Shown here: one piece after another, positions 1,201-21,312 of the stretch
Layout of the letters: the number at the start of each line of letters is the position of its first letter
Numbering within the stretch: the first letter of the stretch is position 1
Origin: a virus
Strand: one strand, 5' to 3'
IMG/VR virus record: IMGVR_UViG_3300042881_000563
Location: 1-29,321 of that record
Length of the DNA: 29,321 nt
Translations under genes and position numbers: made by a program
Notes under the pieces: model-generated
What the model saw: only the letters and a program-made list of their open reading frames with translations
Told to the model about the DNA's origin: nothing
Databases searched by the model: none

Positions 1201-2859
1201 TTAGATTCCGCACTGAGCTGGAAGAGCTGGGAATGCAACTGCTGTACAAGTTGACAAGCAACCAAAGTTCTCAAGCTCACATACACCACAAGTACCTAAC
1301 CAAACTGTAGTTTGACTTTCAAATGCACCTGCAGAAGCAGCATCAGTAAAGATAACTTCTAACAAGTATTGATCATTATCAAATGTACCAGAAGGATTGT
1401 TAAATCTTGGAACACTGTGTTGTAAGTAAGTTCTATAGTAAAGTGCTTGTCTGTTGATAGCATTTACAATTTGGTTACCTTGAGTGATCTCCCGGATTCT
1501 GAAGTCAGAAGAGAAGAAGTTTTGTCTGTAAGACTCAGAAAGAATAATATCTCTCAATACTGATTCTCCAAGACCCATTGCTTGAGAACCTAAACACTCA
1601 TTAACAACACAAATTCCTGTAAACTCACATGGATCACCATTTAAATCTACTTCACTTACAATTAAGTTAACTGGTTGTTTCTCATAGAAGTCAGAAATTT
1701 GGAAAGTACAATCTCCAAATCTAGTATCTACATAAGCACCATTAAGGATTAAACCTGCACAAGCATTAGTGATGTGTCCTGGAGATACATAATTATCCCA
1801 AGTATTAGCACCTTCAGCAGCTAAGAAAGCAGCATTTGTTCCTGGAGCATACCAAATAACACCAGTCTCATCTTGAATAGCAATCTGAATGAATGGAGAT
1901 ACAATTGGAGAGTTTAATAAATCATTAGCCCAAAGGATCATTACTTCAGTAGAATCTACTGGAGTTGGAGCAATAGCTCCTGCTGGACAACATCCTGTGT
2001 AAGCAGTTGCAGTATAGTATGCATTGTGATTTAAGAATCTCAAAGCTGGAGAACCTTTAACATCTAAACGAAGATTATAAGTCTCACCACATAAGAACTC
2101 TTTACAACAGTTAGTTCCTGGGATAACTGGATCAATTGCAGGAGTAACAAATACAATAGTATATACTGCAAGAGTTCCAGGTGCAAATCCAGCCCAGTCA
2201 TTAATTGTTACAGTATCACCAACTTCATAACCTTTACCAAGACTTGCAATTCCTGTTACAGTTGGAATACCAGCAGCAACAGTAATAAACAATGTAAGAC
2301 CAGTACCAGTACCAGTTACAGTTGTTGTTTCAGTAAGTTCTGGTGTAGCTGTAGCAGTATATCCAGCACCAGGAGTTGTAACAGAACCAGTTGTTACACC
2401 ACCACCTAAACTAGAATAAGTAGAACCAACGTGTACTACATTGTTAGATGGAGCACAAGAATCTACACTGTAGAATCTAGATACATATCTAGGGTTGATC
2501 AATTTAGACTTGTTAGTCTCTTGGTATCCACCTAAGAACGGACTAATTCTGTCTTCACAGTAGATTGCAGAACCTACTAAGTAAAGTGGGCAACAAGATG
2601 CATAATCACCACCAGCAGCAGAAACACCATCTCTAGTAAAGTAACCAACATAGTTGTTTTCATAGTTACCATTGATTGCAGTAGACGCAGCAGCAAGTTG
2701 ATTCAATGCATAAGTTGGTAAAAGGGTAGTAGTTAAGAAACCACCATTTGCAGCAGCAGTACCTAAAGATCCACCTGAAGGATTTGTGATTGGAACAGGA
2801 CCAATAGTAGCTCCTGTTGCAAGAAACGTTTTCTTAAACGCATGATTAAAATAAGCCAT
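1201..2859 (-). CDS. Cys-rich virion protein, 552 aa, probably abundant
   Basis: The protein begins MAYFNHAFKKTFLATG. I count 19 cysteines, several as CC pairs (ASCCP, TNCCKEF, TGCCP) and a cluster near the C-terminus (GTCGVCELENFGC). Around residues 155-220 there is a Gly/Thr-rich insertion with the pattern GxGY...GKGYEVGDTVTI, a module common as a graft in phage virion proteins. The C-terminal third contains ESVLRDIILSESYRQNFF, a RIREITQG motif, and HSVPRFNNPSGTFDNDQYLL, which looks like a well-conserved structural core. Its own upstream AT-rich gap (2860-2921) and a strong terminator 30 bases after it suggest high, separate expression, as for the capsid gene. I infer a major tail, appendage or decoration protein. 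A sheath or tube role cannot be excluded. Confidence 0.8.
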   Translation of the reverse strand: MAYFNHAFKKTFLATGATIGPVPITNPSGGSLGTAAANGGFLTTTLLPTYALNQLAAASTAINGNYENNYVGYFTRDGVSAAGGDYASCCPLYLVGSAIYCEDRISPFLGGYQETNKSKLINPRYVSRFYSVDSCAPSNNVVHVGSTYSSLGGGVTTGSVTTPGAGYTATATPELTETTTVTGTGTGLTLFITVAAGIPTVTGIASLGKGYEVGDTVTINDWAGFAPGTLAVYTIVFVTPAIDPVIPGTNCCKEFLCGETYNLRLDVKGSPALRFLNHNAYYTATAYTGCCPAGAIAPTPVDSTEVMILWANDLLNSPIVSPFIQIAIQDETGVIWYAPGTNAAFLAAEGANTWDNYVSPGHITNACAGLILNGAYVDTRFGDCTFQISDFYEKQPVNLIVSEVDLNGDPCEFTGICVVNECLGSQAMGLGESVLRDIILSESYRQNFFSSDFRIREITQGNQIVNAINRQALYYRTYLQHSVPRFNNPSGTFDNDQYLLEVIFTDAASAGAFESQTTVWLGTCGVCELENFGCLSTCTAVAFPALPAQCGI

Positions 2860-2921: not shown

Positions 2922-3440
2922 TTATTTTAAGAAAAGTAATTTGTACTTAGCAGAGTTAAGAGCATCTTTTACTAAATCAAGATTGTTTACAATTTCAGAA
3001 TAAGGTAACATGCCTTGTAACTTGTTAATCATTCCATAGATGTCTCTAATATAATTAACACCATCAGCAACTGTATCAAGAGTTCTTGGTGTTACTTCTT
3101 TATATGAAAGTAACTTCTCAGCAGCTCCTTGATATCCTTCAATTAAAGTATCTGCAAAATCTGGTAATGCATCATAAAGCTCATTCAATGCTTTGTGTGC
3201 AGCATAAGATCCTTCTCCTGTTACTTTTAAGTGTAATTTATGAATACTTGTTCTTGCATTCATTAATTCACTAGCACAAGAAGATACCATGTTGTCTAAT
3301 GAACTACCACCTACTCCAGTATCCGGAGTTGGTTGTGGTTTTGCAGGCTCACTTTTTGGTTGAGTTACTGTTACCTGTGGTCTAGCTATAGTTCTAGTAG
3401 GTTCAGGATTTCTTTTTAAAAGTCTAGATTTTGTTTCCAT
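2922..3440 (-). CDS. Dps/ferritin-like protein with Pro-rich N-terminal arm
   Basis: Residues 1-45 are a basic, Pro/Thr/Lys-rich arm (TRTIARPQVTVTQPKSEP). From about residue 50 the protein is helical and matches the Dps ferroxidase pattern in spacing. His70 (in HLKVTG, equivalent to the HWNVxG helix) is followed by His82 exactly 12 residues later, then Asp97 at +15 and Glu101 at +19. These correspond to E. coli Dps His51, His63, Asp78 and Glu82. The fifth ligand position (Dps Asp67) is Asn86 here. Dps proteins form shells that oxidise and store iron and can bind DNA; phage members exist but are mostly uncharacterised. The gene lies 2 bases after the connector-like gene (TAA-TA-ATG) and before the 552 aa virion protein, so it may be part of the particle. 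Fold assignment is fairly sure; activity is inference. Confidence 0.75.
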   Translation of the reverse strand: METKSRLLKRNPEPTRTIARPQVTVTQPKSEPAKPQPTPDTGVGGSSLDNMVSSCASELMNARTSIHKLHLKVTGEGSYAAHKALNELYDALPDFADTLIEGYQGAAEKLLSYKEVTPRTLDTVADGVNYIRDIYGMINKLQGMLPYSEIVNNLDLVKDALNSAKYKLLFLK

Positions 3441-3442
3441 TA

Positions 3443-4144
3443 TTAGTTGTTGCGTTCTGCAGTTTCTGTACCTCTAGAGAATTGATTGTTAGATTCAATA
3501 TCTCCAGCTAGAATACTCACTGCTTCATCTATTAGTATTTCTATTATATCATCTTTAAATTCACATGTAACATTTACAGGAGATTGTAAATTAGTGTATG
3601 GATCCACACACCCTTGAATTTGAATTTTTCTTGGTTGTCTATAGTAAGTTAAATCTACTTCCGGAACATTAAACTCTCCATTAGTATAGACATTGATTCT
3701 ATCATCTATAAGAGTAGCAAATGTTTCTGCCCACTCAAAGCTTGGTCTTTTTAACTTATCTCTTAAGAGTATAGATACGTTACCTTCCTCTGCAAGATAG
3801 ATTACCATTCTTCTTTTATCACAGCAATCTCTTTGAGCATATACATCTACTCTTTTCCACTGAAGATAATTTCCGGGAATACTTAAAAAAGAATAATCTC
3901 CTTTATCTGTTAAATTAGTTATGGTAGTTTTATTAAGAAGAACTTGCATGTCATCTTTTCTCCGGGTAGATTGCTCATCACCCTCCTTAGTTATATTAAT
4001 ACCATGCAACTGTCTTCTAGACCATTCTACCTGAGCTTTATTAAATGCCTCAACTATCTGCCAACATTCTATGTTGTCATAGTCATTGCTATCTAACTTA
4101 TTCAGCCTTTGCTTAATCTTTACAGTTATAGTACTATTTAACAT
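3443..4144 (-). CDS. Head-to-tail connector / ring-type adaptor candidate, 233 aa
   Basis: The N-terminal helices (ITVKIKQRLNKLDSNDYDN, ECWQIVEAFNKAQVEWSRRQ) resemble head-completion adaptors, where a helical bundle docks on the portal. The middle has LSIPGNYLQWKRVDVYAQ, then RPSFEWAETFATLIDDRINV, followed by VDLTYYRQPRKIQIQG, a beta-strand and YYRxPRxI pattern that I associate with connector or ring proteins of Bacteroidota podoviruses. The C-terminus (DDIIEILIDEAVSILAGDIES) is typical of the last helix of such adaptors. The gene overlaps the 144 aa gene upstream by 11 bases and is followed by the Dps-like gene after 2 bases. No enzymatic motif is visible. The connector call is by pattern and position, not by a firm domain match. 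Confidence 0.6.
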   Translation of the reverse strand: MLNSTITVKIKQRLNKLDSNDYDNIECWQIVEAFNKAQVEWSRRQLHGINITKEGDEQSTRRKDDMQVLLNKTTITNLTDKGDYSFLSIPGNYLQWKRVDVYAQRDCCDKRRMVIYLAEEGNVSILLRDKLKRPSFEWAETFATLIDDRINVYTNGEFNVPEVDLTYYRQPRKIQIQGCVDPYTNLQSPVNVTCEFKDDIIEILIDEAVSILAGDIESNNQFSRGTETAERNN

Positions 4145-4568
4145 TTTTTATTTTCTTTTTAACTCTACCACCTCTTTTATATGCATCACTTTCAGTAAGC
4201 CCCAGACCATAATTAAAATCTCCGTATGGAGATCTTAATGACTCTTCTTCTCTAGACCTATCTTGTGCTTCAAGTTTTGATGTTCTATCCCAACCAAAGC
4301 TGCTTGGTCTTGCTACTTTATCTCTTTGATCAGCTTCATAACTAGGATCTACAGGACCTGTAAATTTCATTGCTGTACCAGGATATTTAGTATCAAGATA
4401 TTTTGCAGTACCTTCTTCATAAGGTCCTGCAACAACACCATTTTGAGCTTTTTTCAAACTCTGTTTAGGTTCCGCGGATTTTTTTGTTTTCTGAGAATTA
4501 AAATAGGCAAGTGGATTTCCAAGTGGTGTTCCTAATAAACCCTTCTTAACTTTATTTTTTTTATTCAT
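4134..4568 (-). CDS. Basic small protein with KAQxG and C-terminal KRGG boxes, 144 aa
   Basis: Not a family I can name. The protein starts MNKKNKVKKGLLG, then has NPLAYFN, a box SLKKAQNGVVAGP near residue 38, a charged central region (SSFGWDRTSKLEAQDRSREEE) and ends YKRGGRVKKKIKNVK. The neighbouring 177 aa protein has the same order of boxes (NPLTHFN, SLKKAQTGIAAGP, terminal KKRGG), so the two are paralogs. No enzyme motif, signal peptide or membrane span is seen. The strong positive charge and the shared basic-GG end suggest a DNA-associated or capsid-bound protein of the virion. The ATG follows AGATAATC, the same start context as several neighbours. Confidence 0.7.
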   Translation of the reverse strand: MNKKNKVKKGLLGTPLGNPLAYFNSQKTKKSAEPKQSLKKAQNGVVAGPYEEGTAKYLDTKYPGTAMKFTGPVDPSYEADQRDKVARPSSFGWDRTSKLEAQDRSREEESLRSPYGDFNYGLGLTESDAYKRGGRVKKKIKNVK

Positions 4569-4580
4569 GATTATCTATTA

Positions 4581-5114
4581 TTATTTTCTTTTTCTTTTTG
4601 TAGTAATAGCTCCTCCTCTTTTTTTAATCATTCCCACACCTACATTTGAATATGGATCTGATAAGTCTTGTTCTCTAGTCCAAGAATCTTTTTTATCTGC
4701 TTTTTTATACATTTCATTATATCCCTTATTAAAATCACCACCTTTAAATGGTGTTTCCATAATACCATCATAGTATGGATATTTTTTATTTAACTCATTT
4801 ACTTGATCAGCTAATGGTACTATTGGTCCATATGGTTGATAATTATCAATTAATGCTTTATATTCTCTTTGTGCATCTTCATCATAATTATTAGATCTTT
4901 CACGAGAAGCAGTATATCTATCTTGTGCATCACTCATTGCTCTTTTTTCAGTACTATTATACCAATAATTATTTTGTGGACCAGCAGCAATACCAGTTTG
5001 AGCTTTTTTCAATGACTTCTTATATGTAGACATTTCTTTACCAGCTTTCTTAACAGCAGCAGCTTTAAGATTATTAAAGTGAGTAAGTGGATTTACTTTA
5101 TTATTTTTTTTCAT
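4581..5114 (-). CDS. Basic protein paralogous to the 144 aa neighbour, 177 aa
   Basis: The order of boxes matches the 144 aa gene product: NPLTHFN near residue 8, SLKKAQTGIAAGP near 34, a long polar and charged middle rich in Tyr, Asp and Arg, and a terminal KKRGGAITTKRKRK. Compared with its paralog it carries an extra central segment of about 35 residues containing PYGPIVPLADQVNELNKKYP. The function is unknown. The protein is likely soluble and partly disordered, with a basic tail that could touch DNA or the inner capsid surface. The start overlaps the end of the upstream 107 aa gene by 4 bases (ATGA-type coupling), so it is part of the same small-gene operon. Confidence 0.7.
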   Translation of the reverse strand: MKKNNKVNPLTHFNNLKAAAVKKAGKEMSTYKKSLKKAQTGIAAGPQNNYWYNSTEKRAMSDAQDRYTASRERSNNYDEDAQREYKALIDNYQPYGPIVPLADQVNELNKKYPYYDGIMETPFKGGDFNKGYNEMYKKADKKDSWTREQDLSDPYSNVGVGMIKKRGGAITTKRKRK

Positions 5115-5434
5115 GATTGTTTATTTTTACGCATTTTACCTAATGTAATAGCAAGTCTTGCTCTTTGTCCAAGTTTACCACCTTTTTTTGCAGCAGCTTC
5201 TAGTTTAGCTTTAGGAATTTTTTCACCTTTCTTAACACCAAGAGATGCTCTTAATGCTCCAGGTTTTTTAATAGCTCCCTGTATCCAACCACCTTTTTTA
5301 AACTCAGTTCTATCAGGCTCTCTTTCTCCTACAGCCGTATACCCTTGATCTTTAGAAGATCTGATTTTACCAGGATATCCTCTCTGTACTTTTACAGATG
5401 CTCCAAACTTTGCAGTAGCTTTTTTAGTTGCCAT
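5111..5434 (-). CDS. Small basic conserved phage protein, 107 aa
   Basis: The C-terminal half has a pattern seen in many phage and some giant-virus small proteins: WIQGAIKKPGALRASLGV, then GEKIPKAKLEAAAKKGGKLG, then QRARLAITLGKMRKN. The N-terminal half is basic and low in complexity (MATKKATAKFGASVKVQRG, followed by KSTAVGE-like polar residues and EFKKGGW). Two basic-GG boxes are present, FKKGGW near residue 46 and AKKGGK near 86. Function is not established as far as I know; DNA or capsid association is a guess from charge. It lies 3 bases past the tiny 12-codon frame and overlaps the 177 aa gene downstream by 4 bases. Confidence 0.75.
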   Translation of the reverse strand: MATKKATAKFGASVKVQRGYPGKIRSSKDQGYTAVGEREPDRTEFKKGGWIQGAIKKPGALRASLGVKKGEKIPKAKLEAAAKKGGKLGQRARLAITLGKMRKNKQS

Positions 5435-5437
5435 GAC

Positions 5438-5476
5438 TTACTTTTTAACTTTACCTTTTCCTCTACAACTACACAT
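5438..5476 (-). CDS. Possible 12-residue micro-ORF (MCSCRGKGKVKK)
   Basis: The 44-base space between the 109 aa and 107 aa genes holds ATG-TGT-AGT-TGT-...-AAG-TAA. It starts at the same TAATCATG junction used by longer genes here (stop, TC, ATG) and stops 3 bases before the next ATG. The CxC and Lys/Arg content match the style of the neighbouring basic proteins. It may encode a real micropeptide, be the remnant of a longer Cys/Lys gene, or simply carry ribosomes to the next start. Too short to be sure. Confidence 0.35.
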   Translation of the reverse strand: MCSCRGKGKVKK

Positions 5477-5478
5477 GA

Positions 5479-5808
5479 TTATTTCTTTTTAGCTTTTTTC
5501 TTAATTGCAGTAATAATGTCTGCTCTAGTAATTTTATTTTTAGGTGCAGCCATTGCAGCTAATTTAGCATTTTTAGTTGTTCCACCTTTTTTGTATGAAT
5601 ATCCAGCAGTTCTATTGTTTCCAGTAGGTCCTGCATTGGGAACACCATAGATACCCATTTTAACATTGTCTCCACCACTTTGAGCATCCGCATATCCACG
5701 TGCTTTATTTAAAGCTTGACCACCATTAGCCATCTTCTTTACTTTCTTAACAGGACCACCGGATTTCATTTTGCCGCAACCCATTTTACAAGTCTTCATA
5801 GTTTTCAT
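5479..5808 (-). CDS. Small basic protein with three GG boxes, 109 aa
   Basis: The N-terminus is Met/Lys/Cys/Gly-rich (MKTMKTCKMGCGKMKSGGP) with a CxxxC pair. Three basic-GG boxes follow: KMKSGG near residue 17, KMANGGQ near 29 and YKKGGTTK near 74. The central region (GGDNVKMGIYGVPNAGPTGN) is glycine-rich. The C-terminus ITRADIITAIKKKAKKK is a probable basic helix. No known domain is recognised. Low complexity and strong positive charge suggest a disordered, DNA- or capsid-interacting protein. It follows the DUF6321-like gene by 16 bases and ends two bases before the micro-ORF ATG. Confidence 0.7.
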   Translation of the reverse strand: MKTMKTCKMGCGKMKSGGPVKKVKKMANGGQALNKARGYADAQSGGDNVKMGIYGVPNAGPTGNNRTAGYSYKKGGTTKNAKLAAMAAPKNKITRADIITAIKKKAKKK

Positions 5809-5824
5809 AATTATATATAATAAA

Positions 5825-6097
5825 TTAACAATTCCACTTTCTTAAAGAAAGAGCTTTTCTAGTTGGTCTTCCTTTTTCATCTTTCATTGGTCCTGGCATT
5901 CCAGACATTCTAGCACAAAAACTTTTACGTCTTTTAGCATCCTTGCTTCCAGGTTTTAGTTTTGATGGTTTAGTAGTTACAGCTGTCTGAAGTTTACTTC
6001 CTGGATTAGCTGCTCTATAACTAGCCACACCTTTAGCATTAAGACCACCTGTTGGGTTCTTACCTTCTTTTCTTTGCCATGCGGGTGACTTTGCCAT
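5825..6097 (-). CDS. DUF6321-like small basic protein, 90 aa
   Basis: The protein begins MAKSPAWQRKEGKNPTGGLN followed by AKGVASYRA, and the C-terminal half reads RRKSFCARMSGMPGPMKD followed by EKGRPTRKALSLRKWNC. This combination (SPAWQRKEGKNPxGGLNAKG plus RRKSFCARMSGMPGPM plus ALRKW-C) is highly characteristic of a family present in many large phages, which I recall as DUF6321. Its function is unknown to me. Two cysteines (about 62 and 90) and many Lys/Arg are conserved in the family pattern. The start is secure because the family motif begins at this Met. The gene overlaps the end of the upstream 94 aa gene by 38 bases in another frame, which is unusually long for this window. Confidence 0.85.
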   Translation of the reverse strand: MAKSPAWQRKEGKNPTGGLNAKGVASYRAANPGSKLQTAVTTKPSKLKPGSKDAKRRKSFCARMSGMPGPMKDEKGRPTRKALSLRKWNC

Positions 6098-6344
6098 TTC
6101 CTTTACCTTTATATTTATACTCAGGGTTATCCTTATGCCATTTCTTTGTAGCAGCTACACCCTGCGCAACTGTCTTGGCTTTACCTTTTGCAGTAAGATC
6201 TATTGTATCCCACTGACCTTTATCTTTAGTAGGATGATTAACCATTATATGACCAATCTTTCCTTCACCTTTTTTTGTAGTCTTCTTATAAACTACATGT
6301 TTTTCTCCACCAGCTGTAACCTTTACTTTAGCTGTTTTTTTCAT
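6060..6344 (-). CDS. Small basic conserved phage protein, 94 aa
   Basis: A basic protein with the central pattern GKIGHIMVNHPTKDKGQWDT followed by IDLTAKGKAKTVAQGVAATK and KWHKDNP. I recall this HPTKxxGxWDxIDLT...TVxQGVxATKxWHKxNP pattern from other phage small-gene clusters, with no assigned function. The N-terminus has an AGG box (KVTAGGEKHVVYKK). The last 38 bases are also the start of the 90 aa gene in a different frame, so the basic tail KGKGNGKVTRMAKKRR is encoded over the neighbour's first codons. The ATG comes two bases after the stop of the 142 aa gene (TAA-AA-ATG), indicating coupled translation. Confidence 0.75.
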   Translation of the reverse strand: MKKTAKVKVTAGGEKHVVYKKTTKKGEGKIGHIMVNHPTKDKGQWDTIDLTAKGKAKTVAQGVAATKKWHKDNPEYKYKGKGNGKVTRMAKKRR

Positions 6345-6346
6345 TT

Positions 6347-6775
6347 TTATGAAATTGGAAATACATTTGTGCTATCAGTAGAATCCACAGCAATAAATCC
6401 TTTATGCTTTACAGCAAAGATGTATAGTGGTGGATATACTACTGAATATAATGGAGCTCTTAAAGTAAGAGTGCTCCAGTTATCTTCATAACCTGCTGCA
6501 ACTAAAGCTGCCTCAGCTTCTGCTTCTGTCATCTCTAGTGGCATGTCAATTACTAAGTCATCAAGATAAGGAGAAGGCATTCCAGTAACCATTGTGTTAC
6601 CTCTGTCATCTACCATAACAATATAAGATGGATACTTCATGTCACCTTTAAAAATAACTTGCATAACAACCATTTCTTTACCAGTAATTGCTTGGTAAAG
6701 TTGTGCCATTAAAGATTCTTTTTTCATTGCATCACATGCTGCTTGCAACATCTGATCAAAGTTTAATTTTTCCAT
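6347..6775 (-). CDS. Hypothetical protein, 142 aa, acidic and beta-type
   Basis: I do not recognise a family. Unlike the surrounding genes the product is acidic and has ordinary complexity: a helical start (MEKLNFDQMLQAACDAMKKE), a beta-type middle (VVMQVIFKGDMKYPSYIVMV, DDRGNTMVTG), an acidic helix MTEAEAEAALVAAGYE and a hydrophobic strand segment near residues 110-125 (SVVYPPLYIFAVKHKG). It may balance or chaperone its basic neighbours, or be a capsid component; neither is shown. It ends two bases before the 94 aa gene start and begins 8 bases after the 115 aa gene. Confidence 0.7.
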   Translation of the reverse strand: MEKLNFDQMLQAACDAMKKESLMAQLYQAITGKEMVVMQVIFKGDMKYPSYIVMVDDRGNTMVTGMPSPYLDDLVIDMPLEMTEAEAEAALVAAGYEDNWSTLTLRAPLYSVVYPPLYIFAVKHKGFIAVDSTDSTNVFPIS

Positions 6776-6783
6776 GACTTAAA

Positions 6784-7131
6784 TTATTTTTTCTTTGTCT
6801 TTAATGTACCACCTTTTTTATAAGTACCAAAAGACGGTCCAGAAATAGGTTGAAAATTTTTCTTTTCTCTTCTAGCACTTTTTCTTTTAATTCTTTTATT
6901 ATCTCTTTCAATAGCTTCTTCAGAATCTTTATTTCTATTAGCTAATATTGTTCCAGCTAAAATACCTGAACCACCTCCAATAAGACCTAATATATTACCC
7001 AATACTCCTTTGCTAGGACCTGGTCCTGGGTCTTTTGAAGATCCACCAGCTTTCATTTTTCTTTTAGGTGTTTTACCAGCTTTCTTCATTGAAATAGCTA
7101 TTGCTGCTTGTTGTGCTCTACTACTTTCCAT
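6784..7131 (-). CDS. Basic GG-box protein with hydrophobic Gly-rich segment, 115 aa
   Basis: After a basic N-terminus (SMKKAGKTPKRKMKAGGSSK) there is a glycine-rich hydrophobic stretch at about residues 40-65 (GVLGNILGLIGGGSGILAGT) that could insert in or disturb a membrane. A highly charged helix follows (EEAIERDNKRIKRKSARREK), and the protein ends SFGTYKKGGTLKTKKK. The same build, basic GG box, Gly-rich hydrophobic stretch and terminal KKGG tail, is seen in the 102 aa protein at 19697-20005. Function unknown. A packaged or ejected virion protein is a reasonable guess from this architecture. The ATG follows TAATC, coupled to the 78 aa gene stop. Confidence 0.7.
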   Translation of the reverse strand: MESSRAQQAAIAISMKKAGKTPKRKMKAGGSSKDPGPGPSKGVLGNILGLIGGGSGILAGTILANRNKDSEEAIERDNKRIKRKSARREKKNFQPISGPSFGTYKKGGTLKTKKK

Positions 7132-7133
7132 GA

Positions 7134-7370
7134 TTAAAACTTTTTACCAGCAGCTATACTATTAAACTCTTTAGCTTTTTCTGCTGCTAATCTCTTAACA
7201 TCATTCATAAGCTTTGCATTCTTCTGAATCTCAGAAGCTCTTTGTAGTGTAGACATAGCAGATTCAATTTCCCATTTTCTCATGTCTGCTTTGCTTCCAC
7301 CTAAAATAGAAATACCAACTGAAGAAGATTTCTTAGCTGGTGTTGATTTTGTTGTTTTCTTAATTGCCAT
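7134..7370 (-). CDS. Conserved small helical protein, 78 aa
   Basis: A Lys/Ser/Thr-rich N-terminus (KKTTKSTPAKKSSSVGISIL) is followed by a helical domain, KADMRKWEIESAMSTLQRAS followed by EIQKNAKLMNDVKRLAAEKA. The pattern of a DMR(W/K)xxExxxxTLxRAxEIxxxxxxMxxVxxLAxEK helix is one I recall from several Bacteroidota phage small proteins. No function is known to me. It is likely a short helical hairpin with a disordered basic arm. It is translationally coupled on both sides by two-base stop-start spacings (TAG-TT-ATG upstream, TAA-TC-ATG downstream). Confidence 0.75.
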   Translation of the reverse strand: MAIKKTTKSTPAKKSSSVGISILGGSKADMRKWEIESAMSTLQRASEIQKNAKLMNDVKRLAAEKAKEFNSIAAGKKF

Positions 7371-7372
7371 AA

Positions 7373-7711
7373 CTATACATTTTTAACTCTTCTTCCCATT
7401 CCTACTCTTGACTTCTCAGCTTTTTTAGCAGCTAGTTTAGAAGGAGTTAGTTCATACTTTGTTTTTGGTGTATCCTTAGATACTCTTTTTGTAGGCCGGC
7501 AGTATTCATTTTTACCACCGGCACCACAAGCTTTTCCTGTTTTAGTATCTTGCCATTTCTCTGCTTGCCATCTTTTTAACTCTGCACCCTTCTCAGTCTT
7601 TCTAACTTGACCTTTACCTTTACGGCATTTAGCAATAGCTTGTGAGGCTCTTGCAGAAGGGAACACAGCATACCGTGCTTTTACACTATGATAGCATGCA
7701 TCCTTTGCCAT
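7373..7711 (-). CDS. DUF5872-like small basic protein, 112 aa
   Basis: The N-terminal pattern CYHSVKARYAVFPSARASQA followed by IAKCRKGKG, then LKRWQAEKWQDTKTGKACG followed by AGGKNEYCRPTKR, matches the DUF5872 type of protein (CYxxVKARYxVFPSAxAS..I.KCRK, then L.RW..EKW.D, then CG and a late Cys). This family occurs in many phages and giant viruses and has no established biochemical role that I know of. Four conserved-looking cysteines (about 6, 29, 62 and 71) could bind metal. The C-terminus is Lys/Arg-rich. The start is fixed by the family motif. The ATG follows TAATC from the 57 aa gene. Confidence 0.85.
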   Translation of the reverse strand: MAKDACYHSVKARYAVFPSARASQAIAKCRKGKGQVRKTEKGAELKRWQAEKWQDTKTGKACGAGGKNEYCRPTKRVSKDTPKTKYELTPSKLAAKKAEKSRVGMGRRVKNV

Positions 7712-9000: not shown

Positions 9001-10620
9001 TTATAGAGAGCCTCCGGTAATTGGGTTTCTCATAACAATTTTCAAGACTTTTGTAGGGTCTTTTACCCAGATAGCTGGCATTGTTTGAGACATCATCACA
9101 CGGTACCCGTTGAATTGTCCAGAAGACTGGAATCCTTGAGTTCTTCCCATGTAGTCCATAGTACCATTTTGATACCACCACTTCAATTGGTTATCCCAAG
9201 AAAGTTTCAACATATAAATATTATCATTAGTGTTATCAGTGATATCAAAGATGATAAAGCTATAAGAAGATAATGGGAAACCATCAATGATTGGGTTCTC
9301 AATATCATTTGTATGAACATTGTCAAATGCTGGGTTAAGAACAAACTTAACATTTGCCAAGAATGGAATTACATATGAAGTATAAGCAAATCCAAAGTTC
9401 AAGTCCATACCTTTACCAGTGATAGCACCTATATCAGCAGCCTGAATTAACAAACCTGATGCGATAGCTTCTTGTCTAATGGCCTCATTAACCATACGCA
9501 TACCACCCATACCAGTTTGTACAATAAGAGATCTTTTTGGATCTGGTCCTTGGAACTCAACTTTACCATTGAAGAAGTTATAGATTTCTCCACGGAATAA
9601 GTCAAGAGTAAAGTTATTTTTGTTATATACTCTTTTGAACGCATTGTTCAATTGTTGCCAAAGTCCAACAGATAATCTGATATCATCTGGACCATCTTGC
9701 TTAACTCTACCTCCTTGTCCCCACATTAAGTAAGTCTCAATGTCAGTTGCAATTTTAGAAAGGTGAGCTGCTTCCATGTTTGTCAAGAAAGTTCTAGACA
9801 AATCTCCGTTATCAAATGCTTTCTTAACAGCATCTTTACCCATAACTTTAACCATATCCTCTAAAGATGTGATTGATGGGTCTAATACATTTTTGTCAAA
9901 TGTTCTCCAGATCTCAGTTACAGGAACTGTACCATCTGCATTCATACCACCTTTGATCATTAAGTCTGCTCTAGAAGAGATAGAATAATGTACGTGAGCT
10001 TCTGCACCACCAACAAAGTTATAGTATTCACGGAATCCTGCATTGGTCATGATGTCAGAGAATCTTTCACCATACTCACCTCTTGCAGAACCTTTTCTGA
10101 ACATTCTTGTTCCGTTAGCTAAGAATCTATTATCTAAGAATCTTGTGTTGTCATTGTTAACAAGTTGAACTGTGTAAACATAACCATCACCTAATGGAAG
10201 AATATCCTCATCTGTAATGTACATCTCAACCCCATTGTATTTGTCATAAGTGATGATATCACCATGTCCAAACTCTCTGCGGCTTAATTTAATTCTAAAA
10301 GTAGAACCATCTACTCCTTTGAAGTCATTAAGTGGTTCAATGTCTTCAAGTACATATGGAAGATCTGTAGAGACAGGAGTCTGCCACTTATACTCTCCAC
10401 GAGCATTATCAACCATAATTACATTTTTGCCACCAAAGCTAGAAAGCTGGTAAAGCGGCATTTCTACTTTCTGAGCCATAGCCCATAAATCAACTGGACC
10501 TAAATCCATAGGTTCAGCATCCTTTAACATATTCACTAAGTGATAAGAGTCTACATGCGATGAAGCTTGGTAGGCTGTATCTCTTAGGAATATCCCATTG
10601 TTTAAAACTGGAGTTGCCAT
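9001..10620 (-). CDS. Major capsid protein (HK97-fold type), 539 aa
   Basis: This is the coat subunit that forms the icosahedral head. The assignment rests on the order terminase, portal, scaffold, capsid, on length (539 aa, near 500 aa for Bacteroidota podovirus coats) and on sequence that resembles crAss-like coat proteins: N-terminal arm MATPVLNNGIFLRDTAYQAS, an E-loop-like region around residues 60-150 (GEYKWQTPVSTDLPYVLE, REFGHGDIITYDKYNGVEMY), a central AFKRVYNKNNFTLDLFRGEI segment, and a C-terminal domain with IVQTGMGGMRMVNEAIRQEA. The final residues are NPITGGSL. The leader is A-rich without Shine-Dalgarno (AACAAATAAAACAAATATAAAA). A strong terminator follows, consistent with high expression. 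There is no obvious N-terminal protease domain or delta-domain, and the separate scaffold gene fits that. Confidence 0.85.
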   Translation of the reverse strand: MATPVLNNGIFLRDTAYQASSHVDSYHLVNMLKDAEPMDLGPVDLWAMAQKVEMPLYQLSSFGGKNVIMVDNARGEYKWQTPVSTDLPYVLEDIEPLNDFKGVDGSTFRIKLSRREFGHGDIITYDKYNGVEMYITDEDILPLGDGYVYTVQLVNNDNTRFLDNRFLANGTRMFRKGSARGEYGERFSDIMTNAGFREYYNFVGGAEAHVHYSISSRADLMIKGGMNADGTVPVTEIWRTFDKNVLDPSITSLEDMVKVMGKDAVKKAFDNGDLSRTFLTNMEAAHLSKIATDIETYLMWGQGGRVKQDGPDDIRLSVGLWQQLNNAFKRVYNKNNFTLDLFRGEIYNFFNGKVEFQGPDPKRSLIVQTGMGGMRMVNEAIRQEAIASGLLIQAADIGAITGKGMDLNFGFAYTSYVIPFLANVKFVLNPAFDNVHTNDIENPIIDGFPLSSYSFIIFDITDNTNDNIYMLKLSWDNQLKWWYQNGTMDYMGRTQGFQSSGQFNGYRVMMSQTMPAIWVKDPTKVLKIVMRNPITGGSL

Positions 10621-11980: not shown

Positions 11981-14737
11981 CTAAGACTTATCTTTTGATT
12001 TTGTAGAACCGCCCTTGTCATACTTGTTTTTATTGACTTGAGCTATCTGCAACTGCTTATCAGCTACTTCTCTTTGCATATTTATCTTCTCTCTTTCTAA
12101 AGCTATCTTATCTCTATCAGCATTTACTCTGTTATCTTCTTTAGTTTTTTGAAGATCAGTTTGTTGCTGATATTGTTGTGTTGCTCTAATATCTTTCATA
12201 GCATCTGCATAGTCTGACATTTCATTCTGATTAACATCTGCCATAGATCCATAACCTGCTGCTCTAATTTCTGCAACCAAGATATCTCTTTGTCTATCTT
12301 TTTCTTTCTCAGCTGCAACTGAATCAATCTTCATTTTCTCTATTTCCTGTTGAGATTTAATTTGTTGTTCTTGCATTTGCTGTTGTTGTTGCATTTCTTG
12401 TTGCTTAAGCTCCTGTTGTTTTTGTTCAGAAGACTTAAGAACTGTATTAAGTTGTGCAATTGAATCAGACTGTACAATTTTACCAAGGTCATAAATACTA
12501 GCACCAGCTGTATTATTAGTCATGGCCATTTGTTTTAATTGCTCAAGAACAGCTCTGTGGTTTGCGGTAGTACTACAGAATATATTAAGATCTCTCATTA
12601 AAAGATCTGTACCGTTTATTTCAAAATTAACTTTCTCATCTGCTGTAGTAATATAAGTTAATCTTGAAGATGGTTTTGTAGAGTGATAGTATTGTGCTAA
12701 GTCTGTACGCATTTGGTGTACTCTAGGCATTAGATAATCACAGTGCTGGATAAAGAACACCTCTGTCTGTGCGTAAGATGCTGCAGTGGCTTGTTCTACC
12801 CCTGTAGCTGTCATCTGAGACAACTGTTGTCCCATTCTTTGTGGGTTAACTCCAATTACTTCATAAGCCTGAGACTTAAAGTAGTTTGCTATCTGAATCC
12901 TAGACATTAATCTTTCTGTCTGAGATAGATCTAGTTTCTGAAAGTGTTGGAAGTTAAGAGCATTCTCAGTGTTTGTAATAGATGTATCTAATGGTAGCAT
13001 CTGGAAATTCTTCATTGCTACATAAGCCTTAGCATAGTTACCTTTACCCCAGTCTTCACCAAGAGAGTGCTTAGGTAAAGTATTCTGGTCTAACATGATG
13101 ATAGTACCAAGTTCATCTACTAAGATGTCTGCTATCTGATTGTTTACAATATTATATCCAATCTGATATGGCTTCATTAAGTCTAGTAGAGCAGTAGATC
13201 TAGTATTTCTATCTGAGAATACAGACCCTTCTACAGGAAGCTTACATCCATATAGTGTACTATCACCTTTAAATTGGAAAGGAATAGGTCCAAGCTTTGA
13301 TTTATTTATTCCTATGTACATTGGAGTAAATCCACCTGGATTATTCATACCCCAAAAAGATGGAATGTTTGGTCCAATCTTAATACCACCCCATACTTCA
13401 TTGATCCAGATCCAGTCTATATGCTCACCATAAATAAGAGTATCTTTAGTTTTATTCTTATTTAATCTAGTATCATAAATTGGTTTAGTTGTAATTTCAT
13501 AGTCTTCATCAACTATATCCATTTTAACTTCACCATTATCATCTATAGAAATTAGATGTCCAACCTTTCTTTGTGACTTCCAATAGATTGTACTTACTCT
13601 TAATAAGTATGCAATACCTTGGTCATAATAGTCTTCTCCTTCAGAAAGTATCTGTGCAATAATATCCCCACCACTGTATACTGAATTAGACATTGCTGTA
13701 GTATATTGTCTATATGCAAGAGACGGCATATTGACATTCCAGTCATGTGATTTTGTAGCATCATATCTTGTACCATCATTTTGGTAACCTCCAATAACAT
13801 AACCAGCAGATCTAATAGGATAAATTGCCTCTAAAGCTTTTAACTGTTCTTCATCCATTAAATAGCCATACTTGTCTATTACATCTGATGGAGTCATCAT
13901 ATCTGTTTTACCAACCCAGTTAGCTTGTGATATATATCTAGCATCTGGAGATTTGTGGTAGAAAGTAATTGCTGGATTCCAAAGTTCTACTTCATAGTCA
14001 TCTTCCATCATTCTAAAATGCCAGAACTCTCTATCTGTAATAAGCATGTCTCTAAATGCTCTTTCCTCAAGTTCATCCATTCTAAATCTTTCTACATCCA
14101 CTTTATGTTGATGAGAAGCCCACTCTTCAATCATTGATCTGTAATCTTTCTTGAAGTACATTTCTATCTCAGGAAGAGTTTTTAATTTTTCATCAGATGT
14201 TTCTTGCATAAATTCTTCAGATGCTGGATCTAATCCTTGATCCATTAGTGCAGATGAAATTTTCATCTTAGCATCTTCTAATAAAACATCCTCTACCATT
14301 TTTCTTTTTTGCTCTAGCATCTCATTATATGAGAACTCATCTACAGCACGGTAAGTAAGTTTAGTAGACCTTTTAGCAAATTCAGCTACAAGAACATTAA
14401 TAACATTTGGGATAATGGGATAAAACTTTAACTCTAGTGCAGAAGCATCTTCCTTAGTGAGTAATTCTACTATATCTCTATACTCATTATTATCTTCTAC
14501 AATATAATCAGACTTATCTATAATACCTTTTGCAAGTTTGTAGTTCTTCATTAACCTTCTGGCATTTCTTCGGATTTGTTTTAATCCTTGCCATTCTACC
14601 CAATCCAAGTTCCAGGCAGCCCATGCTTCATCTTTTTCCTTTTTAGGTAAAAATTGTAATGGCTGAGTAACAGTACCCATTCTACTGTTTTCAGCTTTTG
14701 CTCCTTTCTTTAACTGTAATGCGTTATATACTTGCAT
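11981..14737 (-). CDS. Portal protein, 918 aa
   Basis: Portal proteins form the dodecameric ring through which DNA enters and leaves the head. The start region has the helical FAKRSTKLTYRAVDEF element near residue 118; the clip/stem region contains LITDREFWHFRMMEDDYEVE followed by LWNPAITFYHKSPDARYIS at about residues 232-270, a motif I associate with crAss-like portals. Residues around 655-675 (GQQLSQMTATGVEQATAASY) correspond to the stem/crown helices. From about 760 to 905 the protein is a long Gln/Glu/Lys-rich coiled coil (EQKQQELKQQEMQQQQQMQE), and it ends KYDKGGSTKSKDKS, the same basic-GG tail found on the small proteins. It follows the terminase with a two-base gap (TAA-CT-ATG). The length, over 900, is on the long side because of the coiled coil. 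Confidence 0.85.
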   Translation of the reverse strand: MQVYNALQLKKGAKAENSRMGTVTQPLQFLPKKEKDEAWAAWNLDWVEWQGLKQIRRNARRLMKNYKLAKGIIDKSDYIVEDNNEYRDIVELLTKEDASALELKFYPIIPNVINVLVAEFAKRSTKLTYRAVDEFSYNEMLEQKRKMVEDVLLEDAKMKISSALMDQGLDPASEEFMQETSDEKLKTLPEIEMYFKKDYRSMIEEWASHQHKVDVERFRMDELEERAFRDMLITDREFWHFRMMEDDYEVELWNPAITFYHKSPDARYISQANWVGKTDMMTPSDVIDKYGYLMDEEQLKALEAIYPIRSAGYVIGGYQNDGTRYDATKSHDWNVNMPSLAYRQYTTAMSNSVYSGGDIIAQILSEGEDYYDQGIAYLLRVSTIYWKSQRKVGHLISIDDNGEVKMDIVDEDYEITTKPIYDTRLNKNKTKDTLIYGEHIDWIWINEVWGGIKIGPNIPSFWGMNNPGGFTPMYIGINKSKLGPIPFQFKGDSTLYGCKLPVEGSVFSDRNTRSTALLDLMKPYQIGYNIVNNQIADILVDELGTIIMLDQNTLPKHSLGEDWGKGNYAKAYVAMKNFQMLPLDTSITNTENALNFQHFQKLDLSQTERLMSRIQIANYFKSQAYEVIGVNPQRMGQQLSQMTATGVEQATAASYAQTEVFFIQHCDYLMPRVHQMRTDLAQYYHSTKPSSRLTYITTADEKVNFEINGTDLLMRDLNIFCSTTANHRAVLEQLKQMAMTNNTAGASIYDLGKIVQSDSIAQLNTVLKSSEQKQQELKQQEMQQQQQMQEQQIKSQQEIEKMKIDSVAAEKEKDRQRDILVAEIRAAGYGSMADVNQNEMSDYADAMKDIRATQQYQQQTDLQKTKEDNRVNADRDKIALEREKINMQREVADKQLQIAQVNKNKYDKGGSTKSKDKS

Positions 14738-14739
14738 AG

Positions 14740-16941
14740 TTATTTTATATTTTTAAATGGTGATTTTTTAAAAGCCTGACCATTAATTAAGTTACCGCGT
14801 CCACCAATATGCCTAAATGGACTACTATTTAATTTAAACAAATTTTCTGACTTTTGCAAGTTTTTAGCTACATCATCCATGATTGTTCTTTTAGCATAAC
14901 CTCTATTAGATTGCTGTATTCTCATGAATGCAACCAATGCTGTAAATGCTACAAGTCTATCCACGTTGAGTCCTTCCACATATTCTTGCATCTCTTTGAT
15001 TAACATGGGATCTGGAATTCTTTCTATTCCATACTTTGTTCTTACTATTGTACCATCAGGTTTTGTTTCTGTATCTAGTTCTTCTTTACAATACTCAATA
15101 ACATAACTAAGCATGTGAGCCTTAAATAGGTTACCGGTATTTCTCCAACCATACTCCTGGTAAACATTAGTATTTGCACCAAGATCTTTTAAGAACATAA
15201 TCTGACCTTTTGGTACAAGATATCTTTGCTTCTTTCTAGATATCATATATTGTATAAACAAAGACACGTTACTTTCTATAAGTGCCCATGCATTATACCA
15301 TTCTATTATTAGTTCTAATCTCTGGTGAGTTTTATTAATATCATCAAATCTACCACACCAAGCAGCTACTATTTTATCTTGTTCTAGATAAGTCTCTGTT
15401 TCTATGCCAGTTACTTTAGTTACTTCAACTGGAGCTTTCATCACATATATAGAACATAGTGATTCTGAAGTAGTTGTTTTACCTTCTGATACGGGGTCAA
15501 TAGATGCATAGTACTGACCAAAGGTAGGATCCTTAATTGGTCTTTCCCATACAACAAGAGTTCCTGTTTTATCTTCTAACTTTTTAGATACTGGGAATTG
15601 CATAATAGGTAACTTATTAGTTTCCTTTACTGCAGGTCTTCCATTCTCATCATAGAATATATCTAGGAATTCATATGCATATTCTTTCTCATCTATTCTT
15701 CTCTGTTGTGCTGCAACAAGATGTGGTGGGAATACAGATACAGATCTATGTGCAAATGCTTCTTCAATATTTCTAGGGTGCTGAGATATCCTTAATTGAT
15801 AATCTTCTGGAGATAGATCTTTTTTCCACTGTTCAAACTGTCTATCTAATGCTTCTAATGCATCTTCTACAAGTGAATTACCATATATATCTATATGTGG
15901 AGGCATAGACCATTGCTCAGGAATAAACAAACCTGAGAGACCTTCTGTTCCTTTACTATCTATTAAGTTTGTCTCTACTGCATAGATATCTTTAGATGTA
16001 GGATTTAGAATCATATCCTTAAGTGGATTACACTGAGACAAATCCCCTACAGATCCTGCAGCTATAAACATCCCTGTAGTAATTAAACCAGATCTCATTG
16101 CTGGTCTCATATACTCATAGGTCTGATCCATCTTTGGTGCAATACCAGCCTCTTCATGAAAGAAGAACTTTACCGGACCCCCTACACCATTTGTAGGATC
16201 TTTCTCAAATGACATACCTTGCATTGTACCTTTGAGACCTACTTCATTCTTTCTATCCCCTTTTCTTACCTCAATCTTCTGTTGCCACATCATTACTTTA
16301 TGTGGAGTCATTGGTCTATACCATGCAGTATGTTCATTTAAGAAAGCAGCATATTCATCTAAGAACTTCCATGAACCTTTCTCATTTATATAATCTTTAA
16401 GACTTGCTCCTATCTTCAGAGTAACCCCAGCTTCAAACCAAATTTGATTTAATAGCTTAGCCATGTGAAAATAAGAAGAAGCTATCTGACGTTTCTTAAG
16501 AATAGCTACATGCTTAAAGTTGAGCTCTGCCAATAGTTCATAGAGGGCCATGTGATACTGGGCATCCCTGATTTTAGCAAAGTCAAAAATTTGTTGCTCC
16601 TTATCAAATATTGGTAAGAAGTTAAGCCACATGTAGTAATCTCTTGTAAGGTACCAAGTTCTTTCTCCTGACTTGTAAATGACTCCTCTTCTACATCTAA
16701 GTTTTTGGTCATCCCAGTAATTGATGAAGTCTTTGGACTTAAAGGGAGAGTCGCAGTAATATCCATTGTCTCTGAACTTTCTTGATTCAGAATTAAATAA
16801 TAAGCTAGTTTCATCAAAATTATATTTACCGGGTTCATCAAAAATATTTCTTACAAACTTGGCAAACTCTTCTCTTGAAGAAAAGTCTGTAACAGTCCAA
16901 GTTCCATTGTCATAGGTTGGTATGTTTTCAAATATCTCCAT
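14740..16941 (-). CDS. Terminase large subunit, 733 aa
   Basis: This is the packaging motor and nuclease. The Walker A position is LKKRQIASSYFHMA at residues 149-161, aligned with the RQxGKT form of T4-like terminases but without the canonical Gly-Lys. The Walker B segment is VKFFFHEEAG at 257-266 with Glu263-Glu264; the coupling region (AAGSVGDLSQCNPLKDM) is at about 295-310. The nuclease acidic residues are Asp482 (YYASIDPVSEG), Glu556 (WALIESNVS) and Asp661 (NVDRLVAFTALVAF). The N-terminal 120 residues are an extra domain before the ATPase core. The C-terminus is basic (HIGGRGNLINGQAFKKSPFK). The start overlaps the preceding gene's stop by one base. The call is secure from motif order and from the following portal gene; the altered P-loop is the odd feature. 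Confidence 0.9.
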   Translation of the reverse strand: MEIFENIPTYDNGTWTVTDFSSREEFAKFVRNIFDEPGKYNFDETSLLFNSESRKFRDNGYYCDSPFKSKDFINYWDDQKLRCRRGVIYKSGERTWYLTRDYYMWLNFLPIFDKEQQIFDFAKIRDAQYHMALYELLAELNFKHVAILKKRQIASSYFHMAKLLNQIWFEAGVTLKIGASLKDYINEKGSWKFLDEYAAFLNEHTAWYRPMTPHKVMMWQQKIEVRKGDRKNEVGLKGTMQGMSFEKDPTNGVGGPVKFFFHEEAGIAPKMDQTYEYMRPAMRSGLITTGMFIAAGSVGDLSQCNPLKDMILNPTSKDIYAVETNLIDSKGTEGLSGLFIPEQWSMPPHIDIYGNSLVEDALEALDRQFEQWKKDLSPEDYQLRISQHPRNIEEAFAHRSVSVFPPHLVAAQQRRIDEKEYAYEFLDIFYDENGRPAVKETNKLPIMQFPVSKKLEDKTGTLVVWERPIKDPTFGQYYASIDPVSEGKTTTSESLCSIYVMKAPVEVTKVTGIETETYLEQDKIVAAWCGRFDDINKTHQRLELIIEWYNAWALIESNVSLFIQYMISRKKQRYLVPKGQIMFLKDLGANTNVYQEYGWRNTGNLFKAHMLSYVIEYCKEELDTETKPDGTIVRTKYGIERIPDPMLIKEMQEYVEGLNVDRLVAFTALVAFMRIQQSNRGYAKRTIMDDVAKNLQKSENLFKLNSSPFRHIGGRGNLINGQAFKKSPFKNIK

Positions 16942-19696: not shown

Positions 19697-20005
19697 TTAT
19701 TTTTTTCTTTTAGTTGTAGAGCCAACTGATCTTTTGGTTTTAACAGATCCTCCTTTTTTGTTTTCTTTAAGGTCTTGAATTTTATCTTTAATTCCACCAA
19801 CATTTTTAGTATATGCTAAAGCTCCAGCTGCTATTGAACCAATTGCTGTACCAATTTTTTTAAGAACAGGTCCTGCTGCATTTGCAGCAGCTCTTCTTTT
19901 ATTAGCTTTTTGTGCTCTTTTATGACCACAGCCTCTTATAGGATCACATTGTTCTTCTTTAGCCCCTCCTGCCTCATATTTTTTAACTGATTTAATTTTT
20001 TTCAT
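19697..20005 (-). CDS. Basic GG-box protein with hydrophobic segment, 102 aa
   Basis: The N-terminus carries a basic/GG box (KKIKSVKKYEAGGAKEEQ) and a Cys pair (CDPIRGCGHK). A small-residue hydrophobic stretch follows at about residues 46-70 (GPVLKKIGTAIGSIAAGALA), then the C-terminal tail NKKGGSVKTKRSVGSTTKRK. This is the same layout as the 115 aa protein at 6784-7131, 12 kb away, and belongs to the group of KGG-tail proteins. It may be a virion cargo or ejection protein, or a membrane-active accessory of the lysis cassette that precedes it. The gene is the last before the terminator and starts at TAG-TC-ATG after the 52 aa gene. Confidence 0.7.
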   Translation of the reverse strand: MKKIKSVKKYEAGGAKEEQCDPIRGCGHKRAQKANKRRAAANAAGPVLKKIGTAIGSIAAGALAYTKNVGGIKDKIQDLKENKKGGSVKTKRSVGSTTKRKK

Positions 20006-20167: not shown

Positions 20168-20815
20168 TTATAGGTTTTTTAACATGTCTATTACTTTAGG
20201 ATCTGGATACATATCACTCTTATCTTTTCTCACAGAGTTATGTGTATAGATTCCAGGAACCCCTTTAAATGCTTCTCTATCAATTGCCCAGATTTCTGAT
20301 CTATAAGTCTTAGGAATATCATATGTTTCACATAAGTATTCCACTAGTTGTCTTAGAGATTCAATCTGTGCATCTGAATATTTATACCAATATTTGGTAC
20401 CTTTAAATGGTGTCTCAAGAGTTGTTACATTCTCTGGTTTAACTACACCATTTACATAGTTATAGTATTTGCCATTGCGGAGTTTTAATGGCCCCCAGTT
20501 GCAAACTTCTATACCTACAGAAAGTTTATTTAAGTTCTGATACTTTGCACCATTCTTAGTAAAGTCTTCTGAATCTATACCTAAATGCCAAGCCCAATGT
20601 TTAGATGAGAAACATTGTACAATGTCCCCATTCTCACCAATAACAAATGCAGTTGCTATTCTTGTATCATTACTATTCCAGTATCTTGATACAGCTACTG
20701 CATTGCCTCCACCTGCTGTATGATGTAGGTAGATTTGTGTCTTCTTAGACTCTTCAGCATAGAACTGATCTTTGTCTAATCTTGCTTGAACAATTTTATT
20801 AATATCCAGTTTCAT
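20168..20815 (-). CDS. Endolysin: N-acetylmuramoyl-L-alanine amidase (Amidase_2 type), 215 aa
   Basis: The enzyme cleaves the bond between N-acetylmuramic acid and L-alanine in peptidoglycan for host lysis. Visible motifs are KTQIYLHHTAGG (zinc ligand His31 or His32), SVGIEVCNWG with Glu103, and IYTHNSVRKDKSDMYPDP containing His192, Lys199 and Asp201, which fit the zinc-binding His/Asp and catalytic Lys positions of T7-lysozyme/AmpD-like amidases. Length (215 aa) suits a single-domain enzyme, with no extra cell-wall binding domain and no signal peptide, so it needs the holin to reach the wall. The start overlaps the holin stop by one base. Confidence 0.9.
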   Translation of the reverse strand: MKLDINKIVQARLDKDQFYAEESKKTQIYLHHTAGGGNAVAVSRYWNSNDTRIATAFVIGENGDIVQCFSSKHWAWHLGIDSEDFTKNGAKYQNLNKLSVGIEVCNWGPLKLRNGKYYNYVNGVVKPENVTTLETPFKGTKYWYKYSDAQIESLRQLVEYLCETYDIPKTYRSEIWAIDREAFKGVPGIYTHNSVRKDKSDMYPDPKVIDMLKNL

Positions 20816-21312
20816 TAGTTCTTGATGTCTTTGTAAGTGTCTGATGCGTCTTTTAAACCTTTTCTTAATTTCTTTACAGTATCACAAGTTTTTCTAAGTA
20901 CATTGTTTCCGGTAATATCAAACCAGTTTTCATTAATAGAAGCTAATTCTATAATTGAGAATATACCAAGTAGGATATTAGTAAGAATTGCAGGTACTGC
21001 TATAACAAAGTCAAAACTTAAAAACTTTAGTAATCCATTGAGGAATGGAGTTAATGCATAATAGTCTAATGGAAATACTACACCTGCAGTGATATAATAC
21101 CCTAGAGATTTGTATACATATCCCTGTCTAAGAATTCTAGATTGGAATACATCTCTGTATTTTCTTTTAGTCTGTTTAGCTATTTTTCTAAGAGAAATTA
21201 ATTTAACTACAGTATCTACAAAGATGATGAACATTAAAACAAGCACCATAATTTCAATTGGTGCAAAGAAAGAAGAGACTGCCAAGATTCCTAAAGTTAT
21301 ATTTGTTTTCAT
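20815..21312 (-). CDS. Holin (phage_holin_4-like), 165 aa
   Basis: The protein has hydrophobic spans at about residues 8-35 (GILAVSSFFAPIEIMVLVLM), 70-85 and 98-122 (DFVIAVPAILTNILLGIFSI), with a basic loop between the first two (RKIAKQTKRKYRDVFQSR). The C-terminal IIELASINENWFDITG motif is typical of the holin_4 type, where an Ile-Glu-Leu-x-Ser-Ile-x-Glu-Asn pattern follows the last membrane span. It would form membrane lesions that release the amidase. It overlaps the spanin gene by 4 bases and the amidase gene by 1, forming a standard lysis cassette. The charged tail (TVKKLRKGLKDASDTYKD) is cytoplasmic or periplasmic, unclear. Confidence 0.8.
   Translation of the reverse strand: MKTNITLGILAVSSFFAPIEIMVLVLMFIIFVDTVVKLISLRKIAKQTKRKYRDVFQSRILRQGYVYKSLGYYITAGVVFPLDYYALTPFLNGLLKFLSFDFVIAVPAILTNILLGIFSIIELASINENWFDITGNNVLRKTCDTVKKLRKGLKDASDTYKDIKN

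Follow-up and report, generated by a model that had tools for sequence, protein, structure and literature searches.

Locus and conserved neighbourhood

The window, by which we mean the whole stretch of DNA analysed, is the virus record IMGVR_UViG_3300042881_000563 (29,321 bases), which is classed as a fragment. Its source is a freshwater phage, and by sequence comparison a divergent crAss-like one, because its terminase and capsid protein match those of crAss-like and related phages in tblastn searches. The terminase large subunit (14740..16941, minus strand; PHROG_6681) finds matches in crAss-like, Flavobacterium and Cellulophaga phages, and the major capsid protein (9001..10620, minus strand; PHROG_11589) in Leptolyngbya phage Lbo-JY46, csAssE-Sib and Cellulophaga phage phi4:1. 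The portal protein is encoded at 11981..14737 on the same strand (PHROG_6547, E 1.4e-89).

The gene under study (2922..3440) is a real open reading frame of 172 aa with an ATG start; it lies on the minus strand, a point that the preliminary description had left unstated. Directly upstream is the gene of a 233-aa protein (3443..4144, minus strand), whose stop codon is separated from the ATG by the two bases described earlier (TAA-TA-ATG). This neighbour, first described as connector-like, is a crAss-type ring (tail-barrel) protein: it belongs to PHROG_29507, and profile searches match it to gp062 of phi4:1, which was annotated from MS/MS, and to the ring protein of csAssE-Sib. Directly downstream is the gene of a 552-aa protein (1201..2859, minus strand), which had been noted only as an abundant-looking virion protein. 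A sequence search of the PDB found no kin for either neighbour. An AlphaFold2 model of the 552-aa protein (mean pLDDT 74.5) matched chain a of 7QOF with a Foldseek E of 5.9e-6 and a VIA-align Z of 13.9 over 295 of 333 residues; in length and domain make-up this 333-residue chain agrees with the description of gp36 of PhicrAss001, the capsid auxiliary protein whose copies cover the capsid. Judged by predicted fold, the 552-aa protein is a homologue of gp36 and a capsid auxiliary (coat) protein. With the ring gene upstream and the gene of this gp36-like protein downstream, the Dps-like gene is therefore seated between tail-barrel and capsid-coat genes. Scans for promoters and terminators around it returned nothing above chance.

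Among relatives the gene is encoded within a conserved virion block. The ring gene lies directly upstream in 96/96 viral-contig loci, mostly at a distance of 2 or 5 bp (2-5 bp in most relatives), and a homologue of the 552-aa protein lies directly downstream in all 85 loci with enough sequence. One relative sharing this gene order was found in the genome collection, on a 7.9-kb contig (1-7912) of a Sphingomonadaceae MAG; here the ring gene is followed by a DUF5856 gene (142 aa, with a short arm, 61% identical in the core) and a 456-aa coat homologue, and the contig is probably phage DNA binned with the MAG. In three distant crAss-like relatives (csAssE-Sib, phi4:1 and Lbo-JY46) a large gene, structural or hypothetical, comes next after the ring gene and no small gene separates the two, which suggests that the Dps-like gene was inserted in the window lineage. 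A search for the Dps-like gene in these three phages was empty, which is weak evidence.

We note some further features of the window. A gene block at 4134-7711, flanked by the capsid gene region and the ring gene, encodes small and strongly basic proteins, eight or nine in number, with 20-29% Lys+Arg; it is broken by one non-basic 142-aa protein, and the basic ones are possibly DNA-condensing internal virion proteins. The motif K(K/R/D)GG with basic residues after it, often near the C-terminus, recurs in several of these basic proteins, at the portal C-terminus and in a small pre-lysis protein (carriers at 4134-5808, 6784-7131, 11981-14737 and 19697-20005), and two of the carriers (144 and 177 aa) have LKKAQ(N/T)G in common. 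At 20168-21312, an amidase endolysin (Amidase_2) adjoins a holin-like protein that falls just under the Pfam cut-off.

Predicted fold and ligand residues

The 172-aa protein is a member of DUF5856 (PF19174), passing the curated cut-off of 34.6 bits with 53.4 bits (E 5.8e-14), and of PHROG_858, named 'starvation-inducible transcriptional regulator' (E 2.3e-20). PF19174 was matched by 43/43 relatives at E up to 0.1, and its cut-off was exceeded in 10/10 related large contigs. Searched as a single sequence against solved structures, the protein gave weak matches to Dps (MrgA, E 0.035), with His, His, Asp and Glu aligned gap-free. A profile built from the 43 relatives found HP-NAP as its best match (E 4.8e-6), and nearly all of the other matches were also Dps proteins.

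AlphaFold2, run with the relatives' alignment, predicted a four-helix bundle in which most core blocks exceed a pLDDT of 90, with the first ~45 residues disordered. By DSSP assignment of the model, helix A covers residues 47-72 (3225..3302), helix B residues 78-107 (3120..3209), helix C residues 124-144 (3009..3071), and helix D residues 148-170 (2931..2999), all on the minus strand. The top Foldseek matches of the model were MrgA and other Dps proteins with a probability of 1.00 but an E of only ~0.002. VIA-align superposed it on MsDps2 with a Z of 16.0 (2.3 Å, 127 residues), which exceeds the Z of ~13-14 attainable for helical bundles by arrangement alone; many other ferritin-like proteins reached 13-15. 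The protein thus combines a predicted four-helix bundle with detectable Dps kinship, which places it in the Dps/ferritin superfamily, and from the profile and the model we regard homology to Dps and a Dps fold as almost certain.

The ligand spacing given in the preliminary description was borne out by the translation. His70 (codon 3231-3233) lies in helix A, and His82 (3195-3197; +12), Asp97 (3150-3152; +15 from His82) and Glu101 (3138-3140; +19) lie in helix B, giving the Dps core set of H, H(+12), D(+27) and E(+31) counted from the first His. The fifth position, at +4 from His82, is Asn86 (3183-3185). A further histidine, His67 (3240-3242), precedes the first ligand by three residues, and a His at this place is also found in the aligned MrgA and HP-NAP chains. 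All five residues (H67, H70, H82, D97 and E101) are unchanged in 58/58 distinct close relatives, are invariant at 26-33% identity (T4, RB49, phiR1-37, a kuttervirus, two small phages and a huge phage), and are invariant in 43 sequences across lineages; the codons of the ligand sites show synonymous change only. Neither outcome that the preliminary description had named as refuting, a predicted structure other than a four-helix bundle or His/Asp/Glu residues that vary among close homologues, was thus observed. Asp155 in helix D, Ser78, Ala84, Tyr89 and Gly105 are also invariant or nearly so, with no assigned role. In Dps, the first two His of the metal site come from one subunit and the Asp and Glu from its dimer mate. 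Because such sites straddle two subunits, the ligand conservation argues for a Dps-type dimer, and we consider it quite probable that the window protein binds metal.

The likeness to bacterial Dps (MrgA, HP-NAP, E. coli Dps and MsDps2) therefore holds for the four-helix bundle, the four ligands and their spacing, and breaks down elsewhere. Position 86, an acid in Dps (Asp67 in E. coli), is N, G, E, D or A across the family, so that the conserved +4 carboxylate of canonical Dps is missing, and where the aligned Dps chains have a Trp after the first ligand His, the window family has Leu. With H-[FW] and E-R taken as signature motifs of canonical Dps, neither pattern is matched by any of the 43 members. 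The BC helix of Dps is absent from the model, which is of a monomer, and a Dps 12-mer is therefore doubtful. At E up to 0.1 the window protein had no match to Pfam Ferritin or among the NCBIfam models, and the best matches of its relatives to the Pfam Ferritin and NCBIfam Dps models (E 0.026 and 0.002) were unconvincing. Other assignments were rejected: (i) the one-subunit diiron centre of classical ferritin or bacterioferritin, as there is no ExxH motif among the invariant residues; (ii) the zinc finger annotated for the T2 homologue, because in the AlphaFold2 model both His of the HxxH pair lie within one long helix; and (iii) a transcriptional regulator, the PHROG_858 name being taken as inherited from Dps and no DNA-reading domain being seen.

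The N-terminal arm (residues 1-46; 3303..3440, minus strand) has low pLDDT, is Pro-rich and carries a net charge of +4. In the window lineage it is ~32-46 aa long and usually Pro-rich, and an RxLKR motif at its start is strongly conserved among close relatives; in other lineages the arm is absent or different. By analogy with Dps tails the arm could bind DNA, and by analogy with the head fibres of PhicrAss001, which dock by N-terminal segments of 38 and 58 residues, it could dock in a capsid pocket.

The DUF5856 family in other phages

Possible relatives occur in 1,197 phage records (tblastn, E up to 10), including many T4-like phages and kutterviruses. BFVD also lists DPS-like proteins in the crAss-like phages cr106_1, cr108_1 and ctDAq1, which may or may not belong to DUF5856. 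Family members include T4 RI.-1, its RB49 counterpart, phiR1-37 g280, kuttervirus gp217/gp46, and proteins of two small phages and a huge phage. They share with the window protein the invariant H67, H70, H82, D97, E101 and G105 and the four-helix core; the window lineage is set apart by the RxLKR arm and by the invariable placing of its gene after the ring gene and before the capsid auxiliary gene. The T4 member is encoded directly after rI, as rI.-1, and family-wide invariance of the Dps ligands makes RI.-1 a Dps relative. Overexpression of rI.-1 in T4 slightly delayed the collapse of lysis inhibition (PMC6832632). The T4 gene (2938-3324 of the T4 segment) encodes the full Dps ligand set, even with Asp at +4. 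The term DUF5856 itself had no occurrence in the literature searched.

A Dps-like shell or dimer packaged in particles, or protecting phage DNA, had been expected to be unusual; these numbers and a reported virion 'ferritin' make it less so. Salmonella phage Sajous1 gp217, called 'ferritin' by Phyre2, was detected with 10 spectra in CsCl-purified virions, next to its neighbours gp214-216 with 196, 32 and 20 spectra, and its authors caution that low spectral counts may be debris (PMC10892097). We found gp217 in the MW021757 record; translated, it is a member of DUF5856 and has the ligands of the window protein. It differs from the window protein in its length (117 aa), in the absence of an arm, in its host genome (a kuttervirus, Ackermannviridae) and in its unrelated neighbours. 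In kutterviruses, then, the gene sits in a block of virion-detected proteins; in the phiR1-37 record, g280 is noted as a 'phage structural protein', and in a small-phage lineage the DUF5856 gene follows a head-tail adaptor. Other members lie outside virion modules, in the rI operon in T4 and in a replication region in another phage, and these locations count against a universal virion role. For the virion association proposed in the preliminary description, support comes from gene position and from published mass spectrometry of members in phages other than the window phage; we judge the association somewhat more probable than its absence in the window lineage.

Members from huge and T4-like phages often start like MKKFSDF, and in many of them positions 4 and 7 are aromatic; such starts resemble the capsid targeting sequence of T4 internal proteins. 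Residues 4 and 7 of the T4 targeting sequence matter (PMC9026906), and these N-termini hint at head packaging in the huge and T4-like phages concerned. Some neighbours of these members start MKNFKDFMNEE or MKTYLEFIREN, and the kuttervirus gene before its member (5483-6052) starts MKPFIEYFKE.

Possible roles in the particle and in infection

Starting from what is established at this locus, namely homology, fold, ligand invariance and a fixed place between two virion genes, we infer the dimer, its metal, its chemistry, its packaging and its protective effect as follows. A minimal Dps-derived protein would form at least a Dps-type dimer with intersubunit metal sites, each made of His70 and His82 of one chain and Asp97 and Glu101 of the other, with His67 nearby. 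It would be produced alongside the tail ring protein and the capsid coat protein and be carried in or on the mature particle, where the disordered basic arm would tether it to capsid or DNA. The dimer would take up ferrous iron, or else a similar metal, and would remove peroxide or oxygen in the vicinity of the phage genome, limiting Fenton damage while particles are assembled, in free particles or at entry. To this chain as a whole, a metal-binding virion dimer that removes iron or peroxide near DNA, we give an even chance. Against it count the drifting +4 position and the Leu in place of the Dps Trp, the unconvincing matches to canonical Dps and ferritin models, the missing BC helix, the low spectral count of Sajous1 gp217, the members outside virion modules and the three crAss-like relatives in which no such gene was found. 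A bolder version is doubtful: that crassvirus-like particles carry a catalytically active, arm-docked Dps-type diiron dimer with which the virion detoxifies iron and peroxide, and that all DUF5856 proteins, T4 RI.-1 included, are phage-specific virion or infection metalloenzymes evolved from Dps.

The constant location of the gene, flanked by the ring and capsid auxiliary genes, would also suit a structural virion protein that keeps the Dps fold and metal site for stability only and has no redox role. Such a dimer, docked by its arm, would sit between ring, portal vertex and capsid coat as a clamp or as minor decoration. The loss of the +4 carboxylate and the Dps Trp fits this picture, as do the conserved lineage-specific arm, with its parallel in the docking segments of the PhicrAss001 head fibres, and the independence of kutterviruses from TonB and FeoB. 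Four ligands held constant at ~26% identity while position 86 drifts, however, are more in keeping with a functioning metal centre than with a simple clamp, and some members lie away from virion genes; we treat the purely structural role as a minority possibility. A further alternative is an unpackaged protein of the infection stage; it would act inside the infected cell as a regulator or as a Dps-like sink for iron or peroxide, and its late-operon seat would be incidental. Benler et al. 2021 propose such a role for phage DPS genes, T4 RI.-1 is encoded in the rI operon and has a mild effect on lysis inhibition on overexpression, and some members are in replication regions. In the window lineage, by contrast, the gene is always coupled to virion structural genes, and the kuttervirus and phiR1-37 relatives are reported as virion proteins, so that we consider a solely intracellular role rather unlikely.

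Virion iron has also been proposed, for Vi01-like phages and with Sajous1 gp217 and its neighbours as candidates, to be displayed as a 'Ferrojan horse' that exploits host siderophore receptors for entry. In a published test, however, Salmonella deficient in TonB or FeoB were infected with about the same success, and the window protein has no link to tail fibres, which makes this explanation highly improbable here. Least of all do we credit a chance spacing in an unrelated helical protein. The low score of the single sequence would allow it, and it is refuted by the profile match to Dps, by the first rank of Dps in fold searches and by the family-wide invariance of residues whose codons vary synonymously. 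We retain as our working model the metal-binding dimer carried by the particle.

Phage-encoded Dps-like proteins are already known, as is a reported virion 'ferritin', and the PHROG_858 name apparently derives from Dps. Gut phages (Gratiaviridae and others, PMC8008677) and Lactobacillus phages (PMC6669764) have DPS-like genes, described as DPS/ferritin homologues, which like the window gene encode ferritin-superfamily proteins; for these a role in helping the infected host withstand oxidative stress has been proposed. As far as the descriptions on which our comparison is based go, no place in a capsid operon is reported for them. What appears to be new, as far as the searchable literature shows, is (i) the invariance of the Dps ligand set across the aligned family, and (ii) the constant position of the gene in a crAss-like lineage, with the ring gene on one side and the capsid auxiliary gene on the other.

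PF19174, which is very common in phages and has a member even in T4, is officially of unknown function. Its ligand set and fold, together with the capsid-gene seat described here, lead to a direct question, whether there are iron enzymes in or on phage particles, and to the further question whether they would protect viral DNA, or the host during assembly. The finding bears on proposals of virion-carried iron, and the conserved metal site and capsid-operon position make a role in the particle testable. T4 RI.-1, so far loosely linked to lysis inhibition, would gain a biochemical handle.
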